Shown here: in pieces, positions 10,721 to 22,164 of the stretch | Position numbering within the stretch: position 1 is the first letter of the stretch | Layout of the letters: each line of letters opens with the position of its first letter | DNA from: Niabella soli DSM 19437 | GTDB lineage: Bacteria; Bacteroidota; Bacteroidia; Chitinophagales; Chitinophagaceae | DNA: 64,000 nucleotides | Direction of reading: 5' to 3' | NCBI RefSeq assembly: GCF_000243115.2 | Contig: NZ_CP007035.1 | Span: forward strand, 1,674,001 to 1,738,000 | Position numbers and translations under genes: made by a program | The notes under the pieces: generated by a model | What the model saw: the letters and a program-made list of their open reading frames with translations, nothing else | Databases searched by the model: none | What the model was told of the DNA's origin: nothing

Positions 10721-11671
10721 ATGATGAATGTTGGAATTGATACTATGGGGGGCGATTTTGCGCCACAGGAAGCGTTACGCGGAGTAAAAAAATATCTGGA
10801 AGAAGATAAGAGCAATGGGATCAAGATCACCCTATTTGGAGACGCTGAGGCGATAAAAGAAATTATTGTTGCGGAAAACATTCCAACTGGTTCCATTGAA
10901 ATCGTGGCAACCACCCAGGTTATTGGGATGCACGAACATCCCACCAAAGCGTTAAAAGAAAAAACCGACTCTTCTATTGCCGCAGGATTTCAATACCTGG
11001 CCAAAGGCAAAACAGATGCGTTCATCAGTGCCGGGAATACAGGCGCCATGCTGGTGGGGGCTCTTTTTAATCTAAAAACGATCGAAGGGATTTTACGTCC
11101 CGTTATTTCATCCATTATCCCCAAACAAAACGGTGGTACGGGTTTGATCCTGGATGTGGGTTTAAATGCCGATTGCAAACCCGAACAGCTCAACCAGTTT
11201 GCCACCCTTGGTGCGGTTTATGCACGGCACGTGCTCGAAATAGAAAACCCTAAAGTGGGATTGATCAATGTAGGCGAAGAAGAAGGCAAAGGCAATATAT
11301 TAACACAAGGCACCTACCCGCTGTTAAAGGAAAATCAACAGATCAACTTTATCGGTAACATTGAGGGCCGTGATACCTTTAACGACAAAGCCGACGTAAT
11401 GGTATGCGATGGCTTTACGGGGAACATCATTCTAAAACTTGCCGAATCCATTTACGATATTTCAAAAAAGGAAGCGCCGGAAAGCGGCTACCTCAACCGT
11501 TTCAATTTTGAAATTTACGGCGGCACACCGGTGCTGGGCGTAGCACACCCGGTAATTGTAGGACACGGCATTTCCAAAGCCACTGCGTTCAGCAATATGA
11601 TCCGCGTAGCGGAGAAGATGCTTAAAACAGATGTGCTGCACAAATTAAAAGACGCTATACAGCCGCGTTAA
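10721..11671 (+). CDS. plsX: Phosphate acyltransferase PlsX
   Basis: Converts acyl-ACP to acyl-phosphate, the donor for PlsY in phospholipid synthesis, as a peripheral membrane enzyme. The 316 residues begin MMNVGIDTMGGDFAP, the PlsX N-terminal signature, which fixes the start at 10721 or 10724 instead of 10679. Later motifs are SAGNTGAMLVGALF, GEEEGKGN and CDGFTGNIILK. It is the third gene of the DUF177-rpmF-plsX operon. No fabH follows; pckA is convergent. Confidence 0.95.
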   Translation: MMNVGIDTMGGDFAPQEALRGVKKYLEEDKSNGIKITLFGDAEAIKEIIVAENIPTGSIEIVATTQVIGMHEHPTKALKEKTDSSIAAGFQYLAKGKTDAFISAGNTGAMLVGALFNLKTIEGILRPVISSIIPKQNGGTGLILDVGLNADCKPEQLNQFATLGAVYARHVLEIENPKVGLINVGEEEGKGNILTQGTYPLLKENQQINFIGNIEGRDTFNDKADVMVCDGFTGNIILKLAESIYDISKKEAPESGYLNRFNFEIYGGTPVLGVAHPVIVGHGISKATAFSNMIRVAEKMLKTDVLHKLKDAIQPR

Positions 11672-11689
11672 ATAACGCTTGTCAACCAC

Positions 11690-11800
11690 ACAAACAGAGT
11701 AGCCACAGAGGTCGCAGCGGTTTGGTAAAGTACTGTGCTCTCCGTGTAAGACCTCTGATTCCTCTGTGCCAGCCCGAAAGATTCATTCTGGCGGGGTTTT
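11690..11800. repeat. cacagag-type repeat between plsX and pckA
   Basis: The gap between two convergent genes holds cagaggtc at 11706-11713 facing gacctctg at 11750-11757, and cacagagg facing cctctgtg. This gives a long imperfect hairpin of the cacagag repeat family seen also at 3560-3630. It could terminate either gene, but there is no clean T tract directly after the stem. Confidence 0.5.
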
Positions 11801-11804
11801 ATTC

Positions 11805-13409
11805 CTACACTTTAGGTCCGGCTGCTGATACCGCTGCAGCAGCAACCGTTGCATATTTTTCAAAGTTCCGGGCAAACTGAAAGGCCAGTTGTTTTGCCTG
11901 CCGGTCGTATGCCGCCGGGTCTGCCCAGGTATTCCTTGGCGTTAATACCCGCTGCTCCACGCCCGGGCAGGTATCCGGGATCATCAATCCAAACACCGGA
12001 TCCTTATGATACTCTACGGTATCCAGTTCCCCGTTCAGCGCCGCCTGTATCATGGCCCGCGACCAGGCCAGCTTCATACGGGATCCCGTTCCGTAGGCGC
12101 CCCCCGTCCAGCCGGTATTCACCATCCATACTTTTACGCCATGCTTCGTCAGCTTTTCCCCCAGTAAAGCAGCATATTTTCCCGGGTGCAGCGGAAGGAA
12201 CGGAGCGCCAAAACAGGCACTGAACGTGGCTTTCGGCTCGGTTATTTCCGTTTCGGTGCCTGCTACCTTTGCCGTATACCCGCTGATAAAATAATACAAT
12301 GCCTGCTCTTTTGTTAAACGGGAAACCGGCGGTAAAATCCCGTAGGCATCACAGGTCAAAAAGAAAATATTGCGCGGTATACCCCCGGTTTCAGCAGGCA
12401 CACTATTTTCAACAAAATTTAGCGGATAGGCTACACGGGTATTCTCCGTAACGGATGCATCATCAAAATTGATCTGATTGGTACCGGGGTAAAACGTTAC
12501 GTTCTCTACCAGCGCCCCTGGTCTAATAGCATTATAAATTTCCGGCTCCTTTTCTTTGGAGAGATTGATGCATTTGGCATAACACCCACCCTCAAAATTA
12601 AAGACCTGTGTTTCATCCCATCCATGTTCATCATCGCCGATCAATCTGCGATCCGGATCTGTGCTCAGTGTCGTTTTCCCGGTGCCACTTAATCCGAAAA
12701 ACAAAGCCGTATCTCCCCTTGGGCCAGTATTGGCAGAACAGTGCATACTCAGTACCTTCCGGTTCTCCGGGAGGAGATAATTTAAGATAGAAAAAATACC
12801 TTTTTTTATCTCCCCGGTATAACTGCTGCCCGTGATCAAAATCATTTTATGTTTAAAGCTAACCACCGTGGCGTTGCCCTGCCGCACCCCACAGCGAACA
12901 GGATCCAGTTCCAGACCGGGCGCGGAAAGTATATGCCATTCAGGGCTGAAAGATTCAAGTTCCTGTTCTGTAGGACGCAGAAACAAATTATGGGCAAATA
13001 AATTCATCCAGGGCAATTCATTAACCACCCGGACGTTCAACCGGTATTCCGGCGCTGCGCAAGCATACGAATCGCGTATCCAAAGCTTATCCCGCGTGTT
13101 CAGGTATTGTTGTACGTCTGCAAGAATGATCTCAAAATATTTTTCTTCAATGGCATTATTAAAATTGCCCCAATCAACGGTATCCGAGGTTATAGCATCC
13201 TCTGCAATAAATTTATCCTTAGGCGATCTTCCGGTGAATTTACCGGTACTGATCACCAAGGCGCCGGTGTCATTCAATACGCCCATTTGCTGCTGCAGTG
13301 TTTCGTCAATCAGCTCCTCCGGCGTTAACTGGTAATAGATTTGGTTGTTCAAACTGAGCCCCATCTTCTTTAATTGTTTCAAGGGAATCTCCAATGGCTT
13401 TGTAAGCAT
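11805..13409 (-). CDS. pckA: Phosphoenolpyruvate carboxykinase (ATP)
   Basis: Interconverts oxaloacetate + ATP and PEP + CO2; a gluconeogenic enzyme that also works in the reverse, CO2-fixing direction in some Bacteroidota. The 534 residues carry GRSPKDKF near the N-terminus, HCSANTG, the kinase-1a P-loop GLSGTGKTTLS, the kinase-2 region IGDDEHGWDE and NTGWTGGAYG near the C-terminus. Start chosen at 13409 (MLTKPLEIPLKQL); ten residues further upstream are possible but not family-like. Complete and normal length against about 540 in E. coli. Confidence 0.96.
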   Translation of the reverse strand: MLTKPLEIPLKQLKKMGLSLNNQIYYQLTPEELIDETLQQQMGVLNDTGALVISTGKFTGRSPKDKFIAEDAITSDTVDWGNFNNAIEEKYFEIILADVQQYLNTRDKLWIRDSYACAAPEYRLNVRVVNELPWMNLFAHNLFLRPTEQELESFSPEWHILSAPGLELDPVRCGVRQGNATVVSFKHKMILITGSSYTGEIKKGIFSILNYLLPENRKVLSMHCSANTGPRGDTALFFGLSGTGKTTLSTDPDRRLIGDDEHGWDETQVFNFEGGCYAKCINLSKEKEPEIYNAIRPGALVENVTFYPGTNQINFDDASVTENTRVAYPLNFVENSVPAETGGIPRNIFFLTCDAYGILPPVSRLTKEQALYYFISGYTAKVAGTETEITEPKATFSACFGAPFLPLHPGKYAALLGEKLTKHGVKVWMVNTGWTGGAYGTGSRMKLAWSRAMIQAALNGELDTVEYHKDPVFGLMIPDTCPGVEQRVLTPRNTWADPAAYDRQAKQLAFQFARNFEKYATVAAAAVSAAGPKV

Positions 13410-13436
13410 AACGGGTTTATATTTTTGATTAGAACA

Positions 13437-13444
13437 CAAAAATA
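13437..13444 (-). promoter_or_regulatory. Possible -7 element for pckA
   Basis: On the minus strand this reads TATTTTTG, fitting TAnnTTTG, about 28 bases before the ATG at 13409. The surroundings are very AT-rich, so a chance match is possible, and no -33 box is evident. Confidence 0.3.
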
Positions 13445-13612
13445 TAATTTGAAAATATCTAAAAAAAATAATTTTAAAACCTTATTATTTTGATTTTTTC
13501 AAATACAATAAGGCTGTTTAATTAAAAATATTCAAAAATAAAATGTTAAACTAACAATTGTTAGCAATACATTACTGATTCCCAAATACTTGTAATTTGA
13601 ACGGCATATTTT

Positions 13613-13640
13613 TTTGTTTCCGTTCCGTTTCCTAACTTTG
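13613..13640 (+). promoter_or_regulatory. Candidate promoter of the SAM riboswitch / methionine operon
   Basis: TTTG at 13613-13616 and TAACTTTG at 13633-13640 resemble the Bacteroidota promoter, with a spacer of 16 bases instead of 19-21. The -7 box lies about 60 bases upstream of the riboswitch P1 stem. The position is right for the operon. Confidence 0.45.
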
Positions 13641-13701
13641 ATGCCCTCCCCTATTTTATGGGGTCAGAAGATCTTTAAATTTCTCCCGGCAATACCGGGA
13701 T

Positions 13702-13810
13702 CTTATCAAGAAAGGCAGAGGGTTTGGCCCAATGAAGCCTTGGCAACCTGCTACGTACAAGCGTGGCAAGGTGCCAATTCCACCTCCCGTAACCGCGGGG
13801 GAAAGATAAG
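13702..13810 (+). ncRNA. SAM-I (S-box) riboswitch
   Basis: Binds S-adenosylmethionine and controls the downstream methionine genes. P1 is cttatc at 13702-13707 pairing with gataag at 13805-13810. Between them are the S-box consensus blocks in order: aagaaaggcagagggtttggccc, aatgaagcc, ggcaacc, a variable P3 arm (tacgtacaagcgtggc region), aaggtgccaattcc, and cgcgggggaaagataag. The spacing and conserved bases match SAM-I class riboswitches. An intrinsic terminator lies 35 bases downstream, so SAM binding should favour termination before metY. Confidence 0.93.
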
Positions 13811-13844
13811 TCAGGCAGCTATTTTTAATCGTATTTACAATAAC

Positions 13845-13877
13845 AGCTCACCTGGGTTTATCCGGTGGGCTTTTTTT
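13845..13877 (+). terminator. Intrinsic terminator of the SAM riboswitch
   Basis: agctcacc at 13845-13852 pairs with ggtgggct at 13864-13871 (one G-U pair), with an 11-base loop and a run of seven T at 13871-13877. It is the expression platform for the SAM-I aptamer and implies regulation by premature termination. Confidence 0.8.
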
Positions 13878-13912
13878 ATGGCCATATCGCCTGCCGTGAT
13901 AATTTTTTGAAT

Positions 13913-14020
13913 ATGAAAAAAAACGCTGTTAAATTCGTGGTCCACATGACACAAGAAGCAACATACACTGTTCCTACCATTACTCCTGTAATGCGCTGCT
14001 GCATTTGCTGTATGCCTTAG
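13913..14020 (+). CDS. Cys-rich small ORF, candidate leader peptide
   Basis: An ATG-started frame of 35 codons ending in TAG at 14018-14020, between the riboswitch terminator and metY. The peptide starts MKKNAVKFVVHMTQEATY and ends MRCCICCMP, so four of its last seven residues are cysteine and two methionines flank them. An internal ATG at 13946 would give a 24-residue form. Directly at its end, gtatgcc (14010-14016) can pair with ggcatac (14022-14028), overlapping the Cys codons and stop. The run of Cys codons just before a hairpin, in front of sulfur amino acid genes, looks like a translational attenuator that senses cysteine or methionine charging. It could instead be a small metal-binding peptide. 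Function is inference; the frame itself is seen. Confidence 0.55.
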   Translation: MKKNAVKFVVHMTQEATYTVPTITPVMRCCICCMP

Positions 14021-14057
14021 CAGGCATACATTTACATTCACCCCTGGCGGGGGCATC
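14010..14057 (+). promoter_or_regulatory. Potential attenuator hairpins in the metY leader
   Basis: gtatgcc/ggcatac (14010-14016 with 14022-14028) forms a 7-base stem overlapping the stop of the Cys-rich small ORF. Downstream, cccc-tggc-gggg and gggg-cat-cccc (14041-14057 region) share the same G run and are mutually exclusive. These are the kind of alternative structures a ribosome stalled on the small ORF could switch. No T-rich tract follows, so translational control of metY would be more likely than termination. Confidence 0.35.
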
Positions 14058-14098
14058 CCCGGAATTTTTCAAGAAAATAGATTCTTCATCTTCATTAA

Positions 14099-15421
<1,323 letters not shown>

Positions 15422-15427
15422 GAATAA

Positions 15428-15478
15428 AAGACCTATAAGGTTGTAACATGCCCGCAGTGGCGGAACCTTATAGGTCTT
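15428..15478. repeat. Palindromic repeat between metY and metX
   Basis: aagacctataaggtt at 15428-15442 and aaccttataggtctt at 15464-15478 are perfect 15-base inverted arms around a 21-base centre. It is related to the gdhA palindrome at 9711-9752. It lies inside an operon, 7 bases after the metY stop and 24 before metX, so it could reduce readthrough or protect metY mRNA. Confidence 0.75.
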
Positions 15479-15501
15479 CATTGAATTTTGAAGTTACACA
15501 C

Positions 15502-16542
15502 ATGACCCAACAGGTTTTTACATACGACCAACCTTTTGCACTGGAAAGCGGTGCGGTGTTTCATAACCTCCGGCTGGCCTATACCACTTACGGAAGTATG
15601 AACGGGGATCGATCCAACATCATCTGGATCTTCCATGCGCTTACCGCCAACAGCAACCCGCATGAATGGTGGCCGGAAATGATCGGCGAAGAAAAGATTT
15701 TTGATCCCGCGCGTCACTTTATTATTTGTGTAAATATGCCCGGCAGTTGCTATGGCAGCAGCAGTCCGCTGGATACAAATCCTGAAACGGGCGTTCCTTA
15801 TTATCACAATTTTCCTTTTTTTACGATTCGGGATATGGCAGGCGCCTACCGGCTATTGCAAAAAGAGCTGGGCATTACTAAAATAAAGATCGGTATCGGG
15901 GGCAGCACCGGCGGACAGCAGTTGTTGGAATGGGCCGTACAGGACCCGGAACTGTTTGAACATATTATTCCACTGGCTACGAATGCGGTACATTCTCCCT
16001 GGGGTAAGGCATTCAACGCATCGCAACGCTTTGCCATTGAGGCCGACCAAACCTGGAAAAACAAGGCAGCGGACGCCGGATTAAAAGGCATGGAAGTAGC
16101 CCGCGGCATTGCCCTGCTTTCCTACCGTAATGCAACCGCCTACAACAAAACACAATCAGAGTCCTCCGAAGACACGCTTGAATCTTTCCGAAGCGAAAGT
16201 TACCAGCGGTACCAGGGGACCAAACTGGCCGCACGTTTTAACGCATTCAGCTACTATGTGCTAAGCAAAAGCATGGATAGTCATAACCTGGGGCGTGGAC
16301 GCGGCACGGTAATAAAGGCATTAGAAGCCATCCGGGCAGCCACTTTGGTGCTGGCGCTGGAAGGCGATCTGTTGTTCCCCCCGGAAGAACAGGATTTTTT
16401 AGCAGAGCATATCCCGGACGCCATAGTGCGGCATATCAGCACCGATTATGGCCACGACGGCTTCTTACTGGAATTTGAGCAAATATCGGAAGCGATCAAA
16501 AAATTTATCACACATCACGCTGCCAGCGTGATCACAAAATAA
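15502..16542 (+). CDS. metX: Homoserine O-acetyltransferase
   Basis: Acetylates homoserine with acetyl-CoA, giving the substrate for MetY. The 346-residue alpha/beta hydrolase has HALTANSNPHEWW (oxyanion area), the nucleophile motif GGSTGGQQLLEW (family GGSxGG), the acid in LEGDLLFPPEEQ, and the catalytic histidine in DYGHDGFLLE. The start is the ATG at 15502 (MTQQVFTYDQPFALESG); the frame opens earlier at 15448 but that part runs through the palindromic repeat. It forms an operon with metY and homoserine dehydrogenase. Confidence 0.93.
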   Translation: MTQQVFTYDQPFALESGAVFHNLRLAYTTYGSMNGDRSNIIWIFHALTANSNPHEWWPEMIGEEKIFDPARHFIICVNMPGSCYGSSSPLDTNPETGVPYYHNFPFFTIRDMAGAYRLLQKELGITKIKIGIGGSTGGQQLLEWAVQDPELFEHIIPLATNAVHSPWGKAFNASQRFAIEADQTWKNKAADAGLKGMEVARGIALLSYRNATAYNKTQSESSEDTLESFRSESYQRYQGTKLAARFNAFSYYVLSKSMDSHNLGRGRGTVIKALEAIRAATLVLALEGDLLFPPEEQDFLAEHIPDAIVRHISTDYGHDGFLLEFEQISEAIKKFITHHAASVITK

Positions 16543-16553
16543 AATATAAAATA

Positions 16554-17810
16554 ATGAGCGAACATAAAGAACTTGTGATCGGGTTATTTGGGTTTGGAGT
16601 AGTTGGGGAAGGACTTTATAAGGTATTACAGCAAACCCCCTCACTAAAAGCAGTTATAAAAAAAGCCTGTATTAAACACCCTGACAAAAAAAGAAACGCC
16701 CCCGGCAGTCTTTTTACAACTGACCGGAATGAGTTATTAAACGACAAAGACATCAACCTGATCGTAGAAGTGATTGATGATGCGAAAGCCGGTTTCGAGA
16801 TCGTAAGCACTGCATTAAAAAACGGGAAAGATGTGGTCAGCTCTTCGAAGAAAATGATCGCCGAAAACCTGGAAACCCTGTTGAAACTACAGCAGGAAAC
16901 GGGCAGTTCTTTACTGTATGAATCCGCTGCCTGCGCCTCCATTCCGGTTGTCCGCAACCTGGAAGAATATTACGACAACGACCTGCTGCACAGTATACGC
17001 GCGATTGTGAACGGTAGCACCAACTTCATCCTGACGAAGATCTTTGAAGAAAACCTTTCGTTCAGAGATGCGTTGCTGCTGGCACAACAGTTGGGCTTTG
17101 CGGAAAGCGACCCCACACTGGATGTAGAAGGCTTTGATGCCCTTAACAAATGGACCATCCTCTTATTACACGCATACGGGATCGTGGCGCATCCTGAAGA
17201 TATTTTGTTTAACGGCATTCAGAATATTGCAAAATCCGACGCCCAGGTGGCAAAAGCCCGCGGCCAGCAAATCAAATTAGTGGCCCAGGCCAAGAAGCTG
17301 ATCAATGGCGGTGTTGGGGCTTATGTATTGCCGCAATTTGTATCAACCGAAACACCGTTGTCTTTTGTAAAGAACGAATACAACGGCGTAGTTATCGAAA
17401 GCGGCTTTGCCGATCAGCAATTCTTCTATGGAAAAGGCGCCGGCAGTTTCCCCACTGCATCAGCAGTATTGAGCGATATTTCCGCGCTGCGTTATGAGTA
17501 TCGTTACGAGTATAAAAAATTATATCATCATCAACCGCACCAACTTAACGACGATATTTATCTAAAAGTATTTATAAGCTTTACAGATCTTGCTTTTGTA
17601 CCGAAAGAAGCATTTGAGTGGATCGAGGAATGGCATGCACAGGAAAGCCGTAAATATTTATCAGGCGTTATTGCATTGAAAAAATTAAAGGAACAGTCCT
17701 GGTGGAAAGAGAACGGCACTTCCTTAATTGTAGAAGCCGATGGTATTATTGAAGATATTGAAGAGCGCAAACTCAAAAAGAAAAGTCTGGAGCTGGCGGG
17801 GTTGTTGTAG
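16554..17810 (+). CDS. hom: Homoserine dehydrogenase
   Basis: Reduces aspartate semialdehyde to homoserine with NAD(P)H. The 418 residues open with the Rossmann motif GLFGFGVVGEGL, then SSKKMIAE, NGSTNFILTKIFE, and the substrate-binding segment GFAESDPTLDVEGFDALNKW. The C-terminal 90 residues occupy the place of an ACT domain but are divergent (EAFEWIEEWHAQESRKYL), so feedback control may differ. It is the third gene of the SAM-controlled operon, 11 bases after metX, making this set a self-contained route from aspartate semialdehyde to homocysteine. Confidence 0.92.
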   Translation: MSEHKELVIGLFGFGVVGEGLYKVLQQTPSLKAVIKKACIKHPDKKRNAPGSLFTTDRNELLNDKDINLIVEVIDDAKAGFEIVSTALKNGKDVVSSSKKMIAENLETLLKLQQETGSSLLYESAACASIPVVRNLEEYYDNDLLHSIRAIVNGSTNFILTKIFEENLSFRDALLLAQQLGFAESDPTLDVEGFDALNKWTILLLHAYGIVAHPEDILFNGIQNIAKSDAQVAKARGQQIKLVAQAKKLINGGVGAYVLPQFVSTETPLSFVKNEYNGVVIESGFADQQFFYGKGAGSFPTASAVLSDISALRYEYRYEYKKLYHHQPHQLNDDIYLKVFISFTDLAFVPKEAFEWIEEWHAQESRKYLSGVIALKKLKEQSWWKENGTSLIVEADGIIEDIEERKLKKKSLELAGLL

Positions 17811-17823
17811 TTCAACGTTTCAG

Positions 17824-17864
17824 GTTCAAGGTTCAATATTAGCGTCAAAGATTGAACCTTGAAC
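17824..17864. terminator. Bidirectional hairpin between hom and tsaD
   Basis: gttcaaggttcaat at 17824-17837 pairs with attgaaccttgaac at 17851-17864, perfect 14-base arms with a 13-base centre. It lies between two convergent genes and can end transcription from both sides. The sequence type (tandem ggttcaa) is a repeat-like spacer. Confidence 0.6.
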
Positions 17865-17871
17865 TTTGAGC

Positions 17872-18915
17872 TTAAAACCCTCTGGCCATAGACGGCACAT
17901 CCAACGTGGCAAAATCCTTTTCAAGGTACTTGTAATACCCGGTGATAGCGATCATGCCGGCGTTATCGGTACAATACTGAAAATCCGGGATAAACGTATT
18001 CCACCCTTTTTCAATGCCCATTTCTTTGAAGGCTTTGCGCAATCCGCTGTTGGCAGAAACACCTCCTGCAATGCAAAGATCTTTAATACCCAGGTCCCGG
18101 GCCGCTTTGCTGAGTTTATTCAGCAGGATAGTAATGATCCGGCTTTGAATGGAGGCACAGATATCCGCAAGGTTTTCGTCAATAAATTTTTTGCGCGCTT
18201 CTTCCGTTGCCGCAAATTCTTCTTTATAAACCTGCGCCGTTCCCGCATTCCGGAGGAAATATAAAATCGCTGTTTTTAATCCGCTAAAGCTGAAATTATA
18301 CCCAGGGATTTTGGGCTCGGGAAACCGGAAGCGGTTGGGATCACCGTCTTTTGCATATTTATCGATCAGCGGGCCACCAGGGTAAGGCAACCCCAATAGC
18401 TTCGCCGCCTTATCAAACGCCTCTCCCGCTGCATCATCAATGGTTTCACCAACGATCTCCATTCGTGTGGGCGCCAGGCATTTTACAATTTGTGTGTGCC
18501 CCCCGCTTACCGTGAGGCATAAAAAGGGGAAGGATGGTTTTTGATCCGGAATAAGATTGGCCAAAACATGCGCCTGCATGTGGTTCACGGCTATCAATGG
18601 CTTATCCATTGCCACCGATAATGATTTTGCAAACTGCCCCCCTACCAGCAGACTGCCGATCAAACCCGGCGCCTGGGTAAAAGCGATGGCATCAATATCC
18701 GTCAAAGGCAAGCCGCTTTCCTTTAAAGCAACATCCACCACCGGAACGATGTTTTGCATATGGGCACGGGAAGCCAGTTCAGGCACTACTCCTCCGTGCG
18801 CTGCGTGCACCGCCTGCGTAGCAATACGGTTGGACAATATAGCGCCATTGCTGCAAACTGCCGCCGATGTTTCGTCACAGCTCGATTCTATTGCCAGTAT
18901 GTTGATTTGCTTCAT
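17872..18915 (-). CDS. tsaD: tRNA N6-adenosine threonylcarbamoyltransferase
   Basis: Transfers threonylcarbamoyl from TC-AMP to A37 of ANN-decoding tRNAs with TsaB and TsaE. The 347 residues start ILAIESSCDETSAAV, the family signature. The metal-binding NHMQAHVLAN lies near residue 110, GGHTQIV follows, then FDKAAKLLGLPYPGGP, SFSGLKTA, and the second metal site region CIAGGVSANSGLR and DNAGMIA near the C-terminus. Complete and of usual length. Confidence 0.96.
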   Translation of the reverse strand: MKQINILAIESSCDETSAAVCSNGAILSNRIATQAVHAAHGGVVPELASRAHMQNIVPVVDVALKESGLPLTDIDAIAFTQAPGLIGSLLVGGQFAKSLSVAMDKPLIAVNHMQAHVLANLIPDQKPSFPFLCLTVSGGHTQIVKCLAPTRMEIVGETIDDAAGEAFDKAAKLLGLPYPGGPLIDKYAKDGDPNRFRFPEPKIPGYNFSFSGLKTAILYFLRNAGTAQVYKEEFAATEEARKKFIDENLADICASIQSRIITILLNKLSKAARDLGIKDLCIAGGVSANSGLRKAFKEMGIEKGWNTFIPDFQYCTDNAGMIAITGYYKYLEKDFATLDVPSMARGF

Positions 18916-18933
18916 TATAAATTACCCTTTTTT

Positions 18934-19021
18934 GATGCGGAACATGGAACGTACAATGCTTAATGCGAAACGCATAATGCAGCACGCCGCCCATTCACAA
19001 TTCACTATTGACTATTGACTG
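18934..19021. repeat. Spacer repeats (gcggaac / attgactattgac types)
   Basis: The left half holds taatgcgaaacgcataatgc, which shares gcgaaacgcataatgc (16 of 16) with 36812-36827. The right half, 18993-19020, is a cacaattcactattgactattgac stretch also seen at 36849-36878, 38097-38128, 47172-47192 (other strand) and 47332-47376. It lies between tsaD and the 3' end of the ABC permease gene, ending three bases from its stop codon. No gene is supported here. Confidence 0.65.
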
Positions 19022-19023
19022 AC

Positions 19024-20277
19024 CTAGCTCCTGATCGCTGCCACCGGATCCATTTTTGCGGCCTGCATTGCCGGAACAATCCCTGCAATGACCCCCACCA
19101 ATATACAGATCAAAAAAGTCCATATCATATTACCAACAGATATAAATACCGGAAAGTTCAGCGCTTTGCTCAGTATCTGCGCCAGTACGTACACCAGCAG
19201 CAACCCGATCGTTCCGCCCACCACGCATAAAAAAGCTGACTCCAGCAGGAACTCGGTAAGAATGATCTTCCGCTTCGCGCCCAATGCTTTTTTCAATCCG
19301 ATCTGGGCCGTACGTTCCTTTACCGTTACAAACATAATATTAGCCACCCCAAACAGTCCAACGATCAAACTAATACCCCCGATCACCGCCCCACCGATAT
19401 TCAGGCCCACAAAAGCGCCGGAAAGCTGGTCCCTCACATCATTAATATCATTCAAACTAAAGTTGTCTTCCTGCTTGGGGTTTAATTTATGTATCTCCCG
19501 CATGGTCACCATCAATTGATCCTTTAGTCCTTTACTGGAAACATTATCCCAGCCCTGCACCATAATTACCGGATCTGTTTTCAACTCGTTATAAATGGTC
19601 CTGCCAAACTGAAAGGGAATTACCACGCTCTGATCGAACCCCCAGCCCCCGATCATTTGTTTTCCCTGTTTTACGATAACGCCCGATACCAGTATCCTGC
19701 GGCCGGATATGGAAATGGTCTTATTTACGGCCAGCTCGGGGTTAGTAAATAATTTTTCGGCGATCTCGTTACCAATGACGCCAACATTGGTTCCATAACT
19801 AAATTCTGCATCGCTGATATAGCGCCCATAGGCCATCGCCAGTGGTTGCACTTTTATAAAATCTTCGTTAACGCTGTACACGTTAATACCGTTTAAAGTA
19901 AACCCCGAATACTCCACCTTATTATTAGCGGTACGCTGCAGGGCAAATGCAACATACCGGGCATTAGGCGTACGATCCTTTATTTGCTTTACCTCTTCAT
20001 ACCGGGGAACCGGACGGTTCACATATTTCCACCAGGGGTAATCGGGGCCGCCTTTATAATCCCATTTGTCTACATAAATCGTGTTAGACCCCAGTGAGTT
20101 GATCTCATTCTGGATATTCCGTTGCAGACTGTTCACCGTTGCCAGCACGCCGATAATGCAAAAGATGCCGATGGTAACACCAAAAAGCGACAGGAACGTA
20201 CGCAGCTTATTTTTCCATAGCTCCTGCATCGCCATGCGAAAACTATTGCCCACAATTTCTATCGTACGTCTGAACAT
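19024..20277 (-). CDS. ABC transporter permease (MacB/FtsX family)
   Basis: Membrane subunit of a MacB-type ABC system, which moves lipoproteins, peptides or toxic molecules from the periplasm through mechanotransmission. The 417 residues have one N-terminal membrane segment (about 22-45, FLSLFGVTIGIFCIIGVLATV), a periplasmic domain to about residue 280 (MacB-PCD type), and three C-terminal segments in the FtsX domain (GGISLIVGLFGVANIMFV, KKALGAKRKIILTEFLLESAF, final VGVIAGIVPAM). LGAKR and AAKMDPVAAIR are typical. No ATPase gene is adjacent, so the partner is elsewhere. A TATCTTTG at 20283-20290 (minus) may be its -7 box, 6 bases from the ATG. Confidence 0.88.
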   Translation of the reverse strand: MFRRTIEIVGNSFRMAMQELWKNKLRTFLSLFGVTIGIFCIIGVLATVNSLQRNIQNEINSLGSNTIYVDKWDYKGGPDYPWWKYVNRPVPRYEEVKQIKDRTPNARYVAFALQRTANNKVEYSGFTLNGINVYSVNEDFIKVQPLAMAYGRYISDAEFSYGTNVGVIGNEIAEKLFTNPELAVNKTISISGRRILVSGVIVKQGKQMIGGWGFDQSVVIPFQFGRTIYNELKTDPVIMVQGWDNVSSKGLKDQLMVTMREIHKLNPKQEDNFSLNDINDVRDQLSGAFVGLNIGGAVIGGISLIVGLFGVANIMFVTVKERTAQIGLKKALGAKRKIILTEFLLESAFLCVVGGTIGLLLVYVLAQILSKALNFPVFISVGNMIWTFLICILVGVIAGIVPAMQAAKMDPVAAIRS

Positions 20278-20365
20278 CCCGGCAAAGATAAATCAAACTT
20301 TAGCAGCAAATACAATCGGCACACATGCCTTTCGGGAGTGCCCACAAATAAAGTCGGTTATTTTT

Positions 20366-20396
20366 TTTGCCAAAAACATTCGTACCCTTACTTTTG
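20366..20396 (+). promoter_or_regulatory. Promoter of tRNA-Ser, TTTG-N19-TACTTTTG
   Basis: TTTG at 20366-20369 and TACTTTTG at 20389-20396 are separated by 19 bases, a full consensus match. The -7 box ends only 4 bases before the mature tRNA 5' end at 20401, so the primary transcript should have almost no leader. Confidence 0.75.
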
Positions 20397-20400
20397 CCGC

Positions 20401-20485
20401 GGAGAGCTGGCAGAGTGGTCGAATGCGGCGGTCTTGAAAACCGTTGACTGTAACAGGTCCGGGGGTTCGAATCCCTCGCTCTCCG
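20401..20485 (+). tRNA. tRNA-Ser (anticodon UGA)
   Basis: Class II tRNA of 85 bases. The acceptor stem ggagagc (20401-20407) pairs with gctctcc (20478-20484), with discriminator G at 20485. The anticodon loop cttgaaa has TGA at 20435-20437 between the stem halves gcggt and accgt. The T arm carries ggttcgaatcc, and a long variable arm follows the anticodon stem, as in serine tRNAs. CCA is not encoded. Confidence 0.97.
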
Positions 20486-20490
20486 CCGAA

Positions 20491-20517
20491 GGGGAACATT
20501 AATGTTCCCCTGTTTTT
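20491..20517 (+). terminator. Terminator of tRNA-Ser
   Basis: ggggaacattaatgttcccc at 20491-20510 is a perfect 20-base palindrome, followed by tgttttt. It begins 6 bases after the tRNA and should end its transcript. Confidence 0.85.
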
Positions 20518-20757
20518 ATAAGAGGATCTCCTTTTCTCTTTCCTTAACTAATTGCTGTTTGTTTTGGGATCAGATGAATAACTCCTCCACACCAAAACAA
20601 CTTTCAATCTATACAACCTCCTCCACATCATATTTTAGACTTTAAGTTAAAATGTCTGTAATTTCATTCCGGTGGCCGGCAGTTTGAACAATTAAAAATC
20701 CTTACTACTTTCTACCAGCCACCCACGTTTAAATATGCAGAACTGAAAGAATTAACT

Positions 20758-22164
20758 ATGCAATTATACAAGCCTACAAATAAGAATTCTTTTTTAAAAA
20801 GGATAAATAATGTATGGTGCCAATTAATAGGAAGCTCCGCAGATTTCACATTAGAGGCCAGGATATTCCATTCTATCAGCATTGGGTTAATTACCCTGGC
20901 GGTATTTTATGTTCCTTACAATTTGTTTGCCGGGCTTTATGTAGCGGCAGTTTCCGGTATATTGCTTGCTGGTTTTTTTTATTTTCAATATAATAATTCC
21001 AGGTTCCGGAATAAACCGCATAATAATACTATAGCTGCTTTAACGGGGATACTCATTTTTTCAGTCAATTATTTTTCAAATTCAGGTATTAACGGCTCTA
21101 CCGACCTGATATGGCCCTCGTATTTTGTATTGCTATTAGCCATCTCACCTTATCGTCAGCATTTATTATGGTTATTCGTTTATATTGTGTCCTTCTCTAT
21201 GCTGCATTTGATCGAATATCGCTATCCTTCTTTGGTAAAGCACCCCTTTGATCTGGGCAAGGGGGAATTTATTGACAGGATTACCGCATTTCCCATACCC
21301 ATTATTGCTATCACCATTATTATCGGCTTCTTAAAAAAGAGTTATGATAAAGAAAAAACTATCGTGGAAGAAGAGGCCAGGGCCATAGAACTGCGCAACG
21401 AACAGATTGTACAGCAAAAACAGGAGCTGGAGCAAATCAATACCGAAAAAAACAAACTCCTGTCCATCATCTCGCACGATCTGCGGGCGCCTTTTGCCAA
21501 TATACAGAATTACCTGTACCTGCTGAATGAAAACATGCTTGAGGGGCCCGAGCGTCAATTATTGGAAAACGAATTACTCAATGCCACCGACCAAACGATG
21601 GAAATGATCTCCAACCTGCTGTACTGGGCAAAATCACAAATGGAGGGCGTTACCACTAACCTGGCGGTGGTAGAACTGCTCCACCTGTTACAGAATACCC
21701 TGGAGATCGAAAAGACTCTGGCAGGGAAAAAGGCTATTACCCTGAACTATGAGATCGACACGGGAATAATGATAACTGCCGACCCCGATATGCTGCAGTT
21801 AGTGGTACGCAACCTGATCAATAATGCCATTAAATTTACCCCACAGGGTGGAGTAATCCATATTAATGCCCAGGTGCTGAATGCCCAGTGTAAAGTGAGT
21901 ATTAAAGATAATGGCTGGGGTGTCCCACAGGATAAAACTGATACGCTGTTTTCGATGACATCCGGATCCACATTTGGTACCAATAATGAAAAAGGGGTTG
22001 GCTTGGGTTTACCCCTTTGTAAAGAGTTCATGGAGCGACAGGGCGGTAGCATCGGTTTTGAAAGTACGCCTGGGCAAGGCTCTGACTTTTTTATTCTTAT
22101 TCCGCTGAGCATGCCGCCTGACGCCGATTCCAATTCTTCTTATTCGCCAATCTGCACCGGATAG
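20758..22164 (+). CDS. Membrane-bound sensor histidine kinase
   Basis: A 468-residue kinase of a two-component system. Residues about 37-190 hold six hydrophobic segments forming a membrane sensor without a recognisable periplasmic domain. A coiled coil follows at about 196-230 (EEEARAIELRNEQIVQQKQELEQI). The HisKA box LLSIISHDLRAPFANIQ places the phospho-histidine at about residue 240. The ATPase domain shows the N box LVVRNLINNAIKFTPQ, the G1 box DNGWGVP and the G2 box GVGLGLPLCKEF. No response regulator gene is adjacent, so this is an orphan kinase here. The signal is unknown. Confidence 0.9.
   Translation: MQLYKPTNKNSFLKRINNVWCQLIGSSADFTLEARIFHSISIGLITLAVFYVPYNLFAGLYVAAVSGILLAGFFYFQYNNSRFRNKPHNNTIAALTGILIFSVNYFSNSGINGSTDLIWPSYFVLLLAISPYRQHLLWLFVYIVSFSMLHLIEYRYPSLVKHPFDLGKGEFIDRITAFPIPIIAITIIIGFLKKSYDKEKTIVEEEARAIELRNEQIVQQKQELEQINTEKNKLLSIISHDLRAPFANIQNYLYLLNENMLEGPERQLLENELLNATDQTMEMISNLLYWAKSQMEGVTTNLAVVELLHLLQNTLEIEKTLAGKKAITLNYEIDTGIMITADPDMLQLVVRNLINNAIKFTPQGGVIHINAQVLNAQCKVSIKDNGWGVPQDKTDTLFSMTSGSTFGTNNEKGVGLGLPLCKEFMERQGGSIGFESTPGQGSDFFILIPLSMPPDADSNSSYSPICTG

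Follow-up and report, generated by a model that had tools for sequence, protein, structure and literature searches.

The window, the whole 64,000 nt stretch of Niabella soli DNA analysed here, contains a SAM-I (S-box) riboswitch in front of the genes metY, metX and hom. Between the riboswitch and metY lies a short open reading frame with cysteine codons packed just before its stop. What does such a frame do behind a riboswitch? A preliminary description proposed that the riboswitch senses SAM and that a ribosome stalling on this frame senses cysteine or methionine supply. The features of the region are listed in Table 1.

Table 1. Features of the metY leader region; positions are counted from the first letter of the window.
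Feature	Position	Strand	Evidence or description
Niabella soli genome (G000)			4.7 Mb, single contig
SAM-I (S-box) riboswitch aptamer	13700..13812	+	Rfam RF00162, 86.7 bits, E 3.5e-19
S-box intrinsic terminator (predicted)	13845..13877	+	stem 13845-13871, T run to 13877
Promoter-like site P2	13906..13937	+	TTTG 13906-13909, 20 nt, TAAATTCG 13930-13937
35-codon frame noted earlier	13913..14020	+	translation MKKNAVKFVVHMTQEATYTVPTITPVMRCCICCMP, then stop
Likely leader peptide, 24 aa, MTQEATYTVPTITPVMRCCICCMP, then stop	13946..14020	+	stop TAG 14018-14020; ends MRCCICCMP
Arg-Cys-Cys-Ile-Cys-Cys codons CGC TGC TGC ATT TGC TGT, putative stall sites	13994..14011	+	sequence
Hairpin H1, TGTATGCCT-TAGC-AGGCATACA, stop codon in loop	14009..14030	+	perfect 9-bp stem 14009-14017/14022-14030
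Two alternative stems with common G run 14049-14053	14041..14069	+	second stem 14048-14061, then GAATTTTT
Leader spacer as far as metY start	14021..14110	+	
metY, O-acetylhomoserine/O-acetylserine sulfhydrylase	14111..15421	+	TIGR01326 665.6 bits, cut-off 495.1
metX-like homoserine O-acetyltransferase	15448..16542	+	TIGR01392 329.1 bits (cut-off 500); NF001209 294.3 (cut-off 331)
hom, homoserine dehydrogenase	16554..17810	+	NF004976 296.1 bits, cut-off 205

The upstream module is, as judged from its sequence, an ordinary S-box with its own terminator. The aptamer matches the complete covariance model (model positions 1-108) at 86.7 bits against a gathering threshold of 44.4. The adjoining expression platform (13840-13880) folds at -14.8 kcal/mol with a z-score of -3.86, and none of 200 shuffles is equally stable. 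Downstream, the MetX-like acetyltransferase scores under the curated cut-offs of both models that it matches. The closest named metY, among the 80 best matches, is that of Niabella pedocola, which is 93% identical. The S-box, fold and HMM matches agree with the placement given in the preliminary description, i.e., a frame after the S-box and its terminator hairpin and before metY-metX-hom. The 35-codon Cys-rich frame ending in MRCCICCMP is present as described there, and the stem noted over its last codons is a perfect 9 bp that also covers the stop. The end assigned to the element, 14057, falls inside the second downstream stem; the spacer continues to metY at 14111.

The start had been placed at ATG 13913. 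This needs correction, as a promoter-like pair straddles this ATG and the leader probably starts at ATG 13946. The TTTG of P2 is located just 5' of ATG 13913 and the TAAATTCG box lies in codons 6-9 of the 35-codon frame, so RNA from P2 would not contain ATG 13913. That ATG, between the two boxes, could be readable only on transcripts that come through from the S-box promoter. The Bacteroidota promoter has a TTTG element at a given spacing from a TAnnTTTG box, and P2 fits this pattern at 9 of 10 scored positions (spacing 20). For flavobacteria the TAnnTTTG box is placed at -12 to -5 (PMC9723704). A sigma-70 promoter scan, which does not cover the Bacteroidota promoter type, found no site in the leader region. 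Among 35 related leaders that have the Cys-Met-Pro ending (MP-type leaders; two genomes are counted twice), a promoter-like score of at least 9 is found in 27 (dinucleotide shuffles mean 2.0, maximum 5) and the full score of 10/10 in 10 (shuffles 0.05). An in-frame ATG is present 5-28 nt after the best promoter-like box in 32 of the 35; two have it at 39 nt and one is without. Peptides read from these promoter-linked ATGs are 14 to 33 aa, and the Niabella pedocola homologue (L199), MKQSATYPILNITPVMCCCICCMP, has 24 aa, equal in length to the window peptide. If transcribed from the predicted P2, the leader RNA would be almost leaderless.

Similar frames recur before metY and cysH. A Cys-run leader was taken to be an ORF of 8-75 aa that begins with ATG, lies in the 400 nt preceding the gene and includes CC and three or more Cys among its final 16 residues; this rule was set after examples had been seen and itself selects for Cys. 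Such a leader precedes 43 of the 80 best-matching metY loci of named genomes, a set that partly overlaps the other genomes analysed (antisense 6; shuffles mean 0.91, maximum 3), and 37 of the 80 are without one by the rule. Before metY in other families of the class the count is 13/20 (antisense 0; shuffles mean 0.35, maximum 2), and before cysH in the same family it is 33 of 50 loci (antisense 2; shuffles mean 1.22, maximum 4). The 50 cysH loci represent 47 genomes, with G126, G018 and G087 present twice and a leader in all six of their rows, these 47 being part of the 88 genomes with cysH; counted by genome, 30 of 47 have the leader, one of them (L327/L401) doubtful. Where an S-box precedes metY, 17 of 30 loci have a Cys-run leader (antisense 4; shuffles mean 0.36, maximum 2), and where it precedes metX, one of six. 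The contrast groups show the leader at 1/69 S-box loci before metB-like genes and at 0/16 before hom. The metB-like class was defined by an identity rule together with 28-36% identity to MetY in the rows examined, and the one protein of the 69 scanned with HMMs falls among cystathionine gamma-synthase/lyase models, under their curated cut-offs. As a family the leaders exceed chance, which is a group-level statistic and not one for the single window frame.

Two other searches were not informative. The 35-aa frame used as a peptide query gave matches in 45 of 147 genomes at E ≤ 1, and besides the window only G047 was below 0.01. Matches of short low-complexity peptides are uninformative, and synteny with S-box, metY and cysH was therefore used instead. 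A phylum-wide Cys-Cys-ATGCC-hairpin pattern was found in 20 of 395 genomes and was judged to be mostly loop-sequence chance, its contexts being examined in G000 and G022.

The presence of a leader before metY tracks the room available downstream of the S-box. An Rfam scan of the 80 best named metY loci located an S-box in 59, within 700 nt of metY in 53. A leader is present at 1 of the 16 loci with an S-box-metY gap of at most 214 nt and at 33 of the 37 with a gap of 232-637 nt. One of the four leaderless wide-gap exceptions (L267) has a leader just beyond the 400-nt limit, as does L266, which has a gap of 720 nt. Six metY loci have a leader without an S-box match in the stretch examined (that of L202 spans only 276 nt upstream) and three have the S-box far upstream; with 9 of 43 named metY leaders thus without an S-box within 700 nt, the leader also occurs independently of the S-box. 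The S-box core motif is absent for most cysH leaders in a motif scan of 900 nt, and 18 of the 80 metY loci lack both a nearby S-box and a leader as defined by the rule. Leader and S-box are often together yet separable. A search of related genomes, which had been suggested as a check, gives a mixed outcome: the leader frame behind an S-box does recur, but some relatives keep the S-box without a Cys frame, e.g., Echinicola L253, Algoriphagus L261, L265 and L278. The S-box-only relatives, mostly with a short gap, look as if they lack the whole leader module.

There are two ARRANGEMENTS of S-box and leader, a Chitinophagaceae type and a type found elsewhere. The usual order in Chitinophagaceae is S-box, terminator, P2-like site, leader and metY. 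A terminator-like site is present in the first 110 nt at 15 of 23 S-box-to-metY loci with a gap >270 nt (shuffles 1.4). Since most Chitinophagaceae leaders have their own promoter-like site after the S-box terminator, the two layers may act side by side as well as in series. From loci not labelled as this family, 13 with both elements were chosen, belonging to Cyclobacteriaceae, other Cytophagales, Cesiribacter, Pontibacter, Bernardetia and unclassified Bacteroidetes. The leader AUG is 1-11 nt past the aptamer in 12 of these and 62 nt past it in Bernardetia (L267). At the class level the AUG is 2-15 nt past the aptamer in 7 of 9 S-box loci, one of which (L418) has only two Cys; L410 and L419 do not fit. 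With an AUG 1-15 nt from the aptamer there is no room for a terminator between them, and SAM would gate translation of the leader. The chances appear about even that in Bacteroidia the frame controlled by SAM-I can be a Cys leader, with SAM gating leader translation and cysteine gating the effect of the leader, and with Chitinophagaceae partly parallel. If this fusion of the two sensors is correct, one transcript would express sulfhydrylation genes only when SAM and cysteine are both low. In Chitinophagaceae, including the window, a terminator and a second promoter between the sensors would make the circuit partly parallel.

The Cys codons vary synonymously, with 208 TGT and 88 TGC in the last 17 codons of 56 metY leaders, among which at least three genomes appear twice (L208/G103, L218/G107, L236/G023). 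The codon before the last Cys is also Cys in 32 of the 35 MP-type leaders, with commonest-base fractions of 0.91, 0.97 and 0.77, the third base being T in 77%. Cys is found at codon -3 in 26 of the 35 and at codon -4 likewise in 26, and columns -7 and -8, which precede the Cys run, show no conservation; the leaders are anchored on the last Cys codon, which by itself fixes the Cys, Met and Pro columns there. Choosing leaders by their Cys content builds in part of the Cys conservation, but not the TGT/TGC variation or the control counts. A comparison of codon conservation with structure had been advised in the preliminary description. It favors coding in that the Cys codons change synonymously, but RNA and coding constraint are inseparable where the last Cys codon and Met-Pro overlap H1. 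We infer that the Cys codons, and not a function of the peptide, are what is sensed.

Hairpin H1 recurs among the leaders. Its region in the window (13985-14035) has a z-score of -1.97, with 8 of 200 shuffles equally stable. Of 56 leaders, 38 have a hairpin of at least 6 bp close to the final Cys codon (14.0 in shuffles on average, maximum 21); most non-MP leaders are without H1. The arms are mostly TATGCC/GGCATA, but one genome (L208/G103) has an altered set of pairs, GTATGT/ACATAC, and G116, inspected by eye, shows altered pairs too. H1 is conserved mostly as sequence, with little covariation. No consensus structure emerged from RNAalifold modeling of 39 MP-type leaders (0.0 kcal/mol), probably due to gaps. 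In two leaders (the window and L220) the 5' arm of H1 can be paired by eye with the G run further downstream; this pairing is not general. The stems sharing one G run, which had been noted earlier, are found in the window and in several relatives; as a general feature of the leaders they were not sustained, as they are not uniform.

The spacers between leader and gene have a biased composition. C minus G is 0.134 in MP-type leaders, 0.116 in other metY leaders and 0.127 in cysH leaders, compared with control values of 0.031 for the 84 leaders between an S-box and metB or hom and 0.007 for the stretches preceding 43 long ORFs of the window. Mann-Whitney comparisons of the spacers with the S-box controls give p values of 1.7e-10, 1.4e-5 and 1.7e-7. 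This C-rich, G-poor composition is a property of the leaders as a group and not of the window spacer alone. A rho gene is present in the Niabella soli genome (636.2 bits).

Four other explanations of the frame have to be weighed. The least probable is that a random Cys-containing ORF happens to lie in an S-box leader. Short ORFs are indeed common, with 156 of at least 20 aa overlapping 11000-21000, but Cys-run frames are far fewer in shuffles and antisense, their presence tracks gap length, and they are nearly absent before metB-like genes and hom. It is also very unlikely, if slightly less so, that the peptide itself acts, e.g., as a small, Cys-rich protein that binds metals or thiols and is produced beside metY. 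The recurring CCxCC-like pattern would suit such a protein, as would a Cys content of 33% in the last 16 residues of 56 leaders, which comes partly from the selection rule. The lack of conservation upstream of the Cys run and the varying number and spacing of Cys argue against it; in addition, none of eight peptides compared with NCBIfam and six with Pfam reached a family cut-off, the one weak NCBIfam match having an E of 0.11.

The other two explanations accept a leader and differ in how it would work. In a classical attenuator the stem at 14048-14061 with its T tract would be the terminator, the preceding stem the antiterminator, and ribosome position would choose between them. The two window stems are mutually exclusive, and the second, with its tail GAATTTTT, has the look of a weak terminator; a later stem with a T tract is clear in L211, G007 and L218. 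Terminator-like sites are found in 7 of 36 MP-type leaders (shuffles 1.15, maximum 2), but in 0/20 other metY leaders and 0/28 cysH leaders, counts that rule out a uniform intrinsic terminator as a general property. The window stem region folded in isolation is no more stable than shuffles (z 0.29), and no consistent pairing between H1 and downstream stems is seen in the stem lists of the leaders. This makes the classical attenuator improbable, although it is the strongest of the four. The terminator scan also scores H1 itself as terminator-like. Of the control spacers from S-box to metB or hom, 23/84 are terminator-like (shuffles 3.6), presumably the S-box terminators themselves. Somewhat less probable again is translational control, in which a stalled ribosome or H1 would alter access to the metY start or re-initiation and transcription would not be terminated. 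It fits a stop codon located in the H1 loop and a distance of 80-113 nt between leader stop and metY in 33 of 36 MP-type leaders, yet a spacer of about 90 nt is long for re-initiation, and the window fold leaves the 26 nt immediately 5' of metY unpaired, so that no sequestering structure is seen.

The explanation favored here, with a probability of about 0.75, is a cis-acting leader peptide that mediates, through the ribosome, a cysteine-responsive attenuation of metY-metX-hom stacked on the S-box. SAM would close the S-box terminator on transcripts from the upstream promoter, and the leader ORF would be carried both by read-through RNA from that promoter and by P2 RNA. When Cys-tRNA is scarce, a ribosome would stall on the terminal Cys codons and shield the RNA just downstream, and metY would be transcribed. 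When cysteine is plentiful, the ribosome would reach the stop and leave, and the exposed C-rich, G-poor spacer would let Rho terminate. Rho is the better general candidate, as the leaders are mostly without a terminator and the G-run stems are not general. It need not be used in the window, where there is a terminator-like stem; in Niabella soli the second stem and U tract may help or replace Rho. The low G content of the spacer might also have no role beyond leaving the metY start accessible. What we infer from these features is that P2 is transcribed, that the leader is translated, that ribosomes stall and Rho acts, and in which direction the response goes. MetY uses sulfide to make homocysteine, the route to SAM, and CysH supplies reduced sulfur; a joint brake by SAM and cysteine is therefore sensible.

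Of the second, cysteine-sensing layer proposed in the preliminary description, recurrence, the relation to gap length, synonymous variation at the Cys positions and the association with metY and cysH are in favor. The picture differs in that the layers may be partly parallel, that leaders are also found without an S-box, and that the G-run stems are not general. Against it stand the cysH of the same genome and some metY loci that keep the S-box, which are without a leader. A second putative cysteine-sensing control layer behind the S-box is well supported by the comparison of genomes.

Cys leaders are found before several kinds of genes. The CysH of L163 matches NF002537, phosphoadenylyl-sulfate reductase, at 266 bits (cut-off 154), and the cysH leader stands behind an S-box in two genomes (L163, L196). 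One leader precedes a metX (L048), others precede SusC/TonB-like receptors (L156, L192 and L162 of Niabella soli) as well as a porin-like gene (L108, L116). The assignments to SusC/TonB and porin are readings of the sequence, and the SusC-like fragment had no NCBIfam match at E ≤ 1e-60. Both S-boxes found in the Niabella soli genome precede Cys leaders. The second (L162, G000:C1:3554894-3556347; also L441) is followed by a 40-codon frame ending in RMQLCCC and a stop, and then by the SusC/TonB-like gene. Met/Cys-rich leaders like this one precede the receptor-like genes in L156 and L192. In L108 and L116 an S-box and a terminator-like stem are accompanied by a frame with a Cys run (in L108, ACPCLCCPHACCCCN) approximately 280 nt before the porin-like gene. 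A survey of Niabella soli, in which 50 of 59 and 30 of 71 matches were read, yielded as convincing only the metY leader and the SusC/TonB-like leader (L441/L162). Two intergenic Cys frames were unconvincing: L331, of 30 aa and with no gene found downstream of it, and L440, of 8 aa. The Niabella soli cysH has no Cys leader in the 900 nt upstream nor elsewhere on the same strand in a 3.5-kb stretch. Likewise no Cys leader was found behind S-boxes before three metH-like genes (L123, L145 and L198, where the S-box is directly 5' of the gene), one cobA-like gene and the cysH of L191, all named from sequence.

Some further metY leaders have features of their own. Upstream of metY in L412, L413 and L420 there are frames that alternate Met and Cys (MHRMHHCMCMCCMCM and similar), which suggests that some of these may sense methionine besides cysteine. 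L425 and L426 (genus g108) have related Met-/Cys-rich frames ending in KMMQMCIPHCYCQK and KMPMCIPIYCCRK, approximately 340 nt before metY-like genes, with no S-box match in the stretch examined. A common element with a core like ACCGAGTGACGGGTATGG is present between leader stop and metY in L252, L266, L268, L271 and L274. The arms around this core seem, by eye, to covary (TAGC/GCTA, GTAAC/GTTAC, CTAAGC/GCTTAG). Rfam at the gathering threshold gives only the S-box in these five loci.

If the leader reading is correct, one operon would be under a two-input device for SAM and cysteine, made up of a metabolite riboswitch together with a leader peptide for an amino acid. Cysteine attenuation would be extended to Bacteroidota, with candidate cysteine control of metY and cysH there, and the recurrent short elements in Niabella pedocola, Terrimonas ferruginea and Cesiribacter andamanensis would be material for tests of Rho-dependent attenuation. 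An S-box by itself does not account for the Cys frame, as S-box units stand before metB-like genes and hom without such a frame. In the open-access literature, which leaves most subscription papers outside, no cysteine leader was found in Bacteroidota and none combined with an S-box; the absence of a description of this kind, remarked on earlier, agrees with that search. Leader-peptide attenuation, or small ORFs reminiscent of it, has been suspected in Flavobacterium psychrophilum (PMC9723704) and Bacteroides thetaiotaomicron (PMC7366714), and the passages concerned name neither a cysteine leader nor a combination with an S-box.

Cysteine leader peptides in Actinobacteria were reportedly described by Canestrari et al. 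in 2020, according to papers that cite the work. Leader ORFs with Cys codons precede cys operons in Mycobacterium and Propionibacterium acnes and cbs in Bifidobacterium longum (Seliverstov et al. 2005, PMC1262725). As presented there, they share with the present leaders a short ORF, a Cys run near the stop, sulfur genes downstream, the lack of a conserved terminator, poly-pyrimidine motifs in the spacer and a proposal of Rho; for the mycobacterial cys leaders the authors call the Rho prediction weak (PMC1262725). The mycobacterial leader start is described as leaderless, and the Niabella leader would be nearly so if P2 is used. The present leaders differ in that they belong to another phylum, have metY, cysH and a SusC/TonB-like receptor as targets, have an S-box at many loci and, in Chitinophagaceae, carry hairpin H1 at the stop codon. 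The same paper names the tna operon of E. coli among attenuation systems (PMC1262725).

The uORFC-8-2 motif before cysS in Rhodobacterales (PMC8632094) is similar in having a leader ORF with conserved tandem Cys codons (UGC and UGU) that lie within a stem. It is unlike the present leaders in that a U run is taken as an intrinsic terminator in all cases, in that it stands before cysS, and in that the passage on it names no riboswitch (PMC8632094). The present leaders do not have its combination of two stems, intrinsic terminator and cysS, as their target here is metY and terminators are not general. A further comparison concerns how a ribosome held on a leader would act on Rho. The leader peptide of the E. 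coli tna operon is Rho-dependent, and stalling at tnaC needs tryptophan and the nascent peptide. As in that operon, a ribosome paused at the leader's end would keep Rho from loading on the RNA that immediately follows, but in Niabella the stalling would come from a lack of Cys-tRNA.
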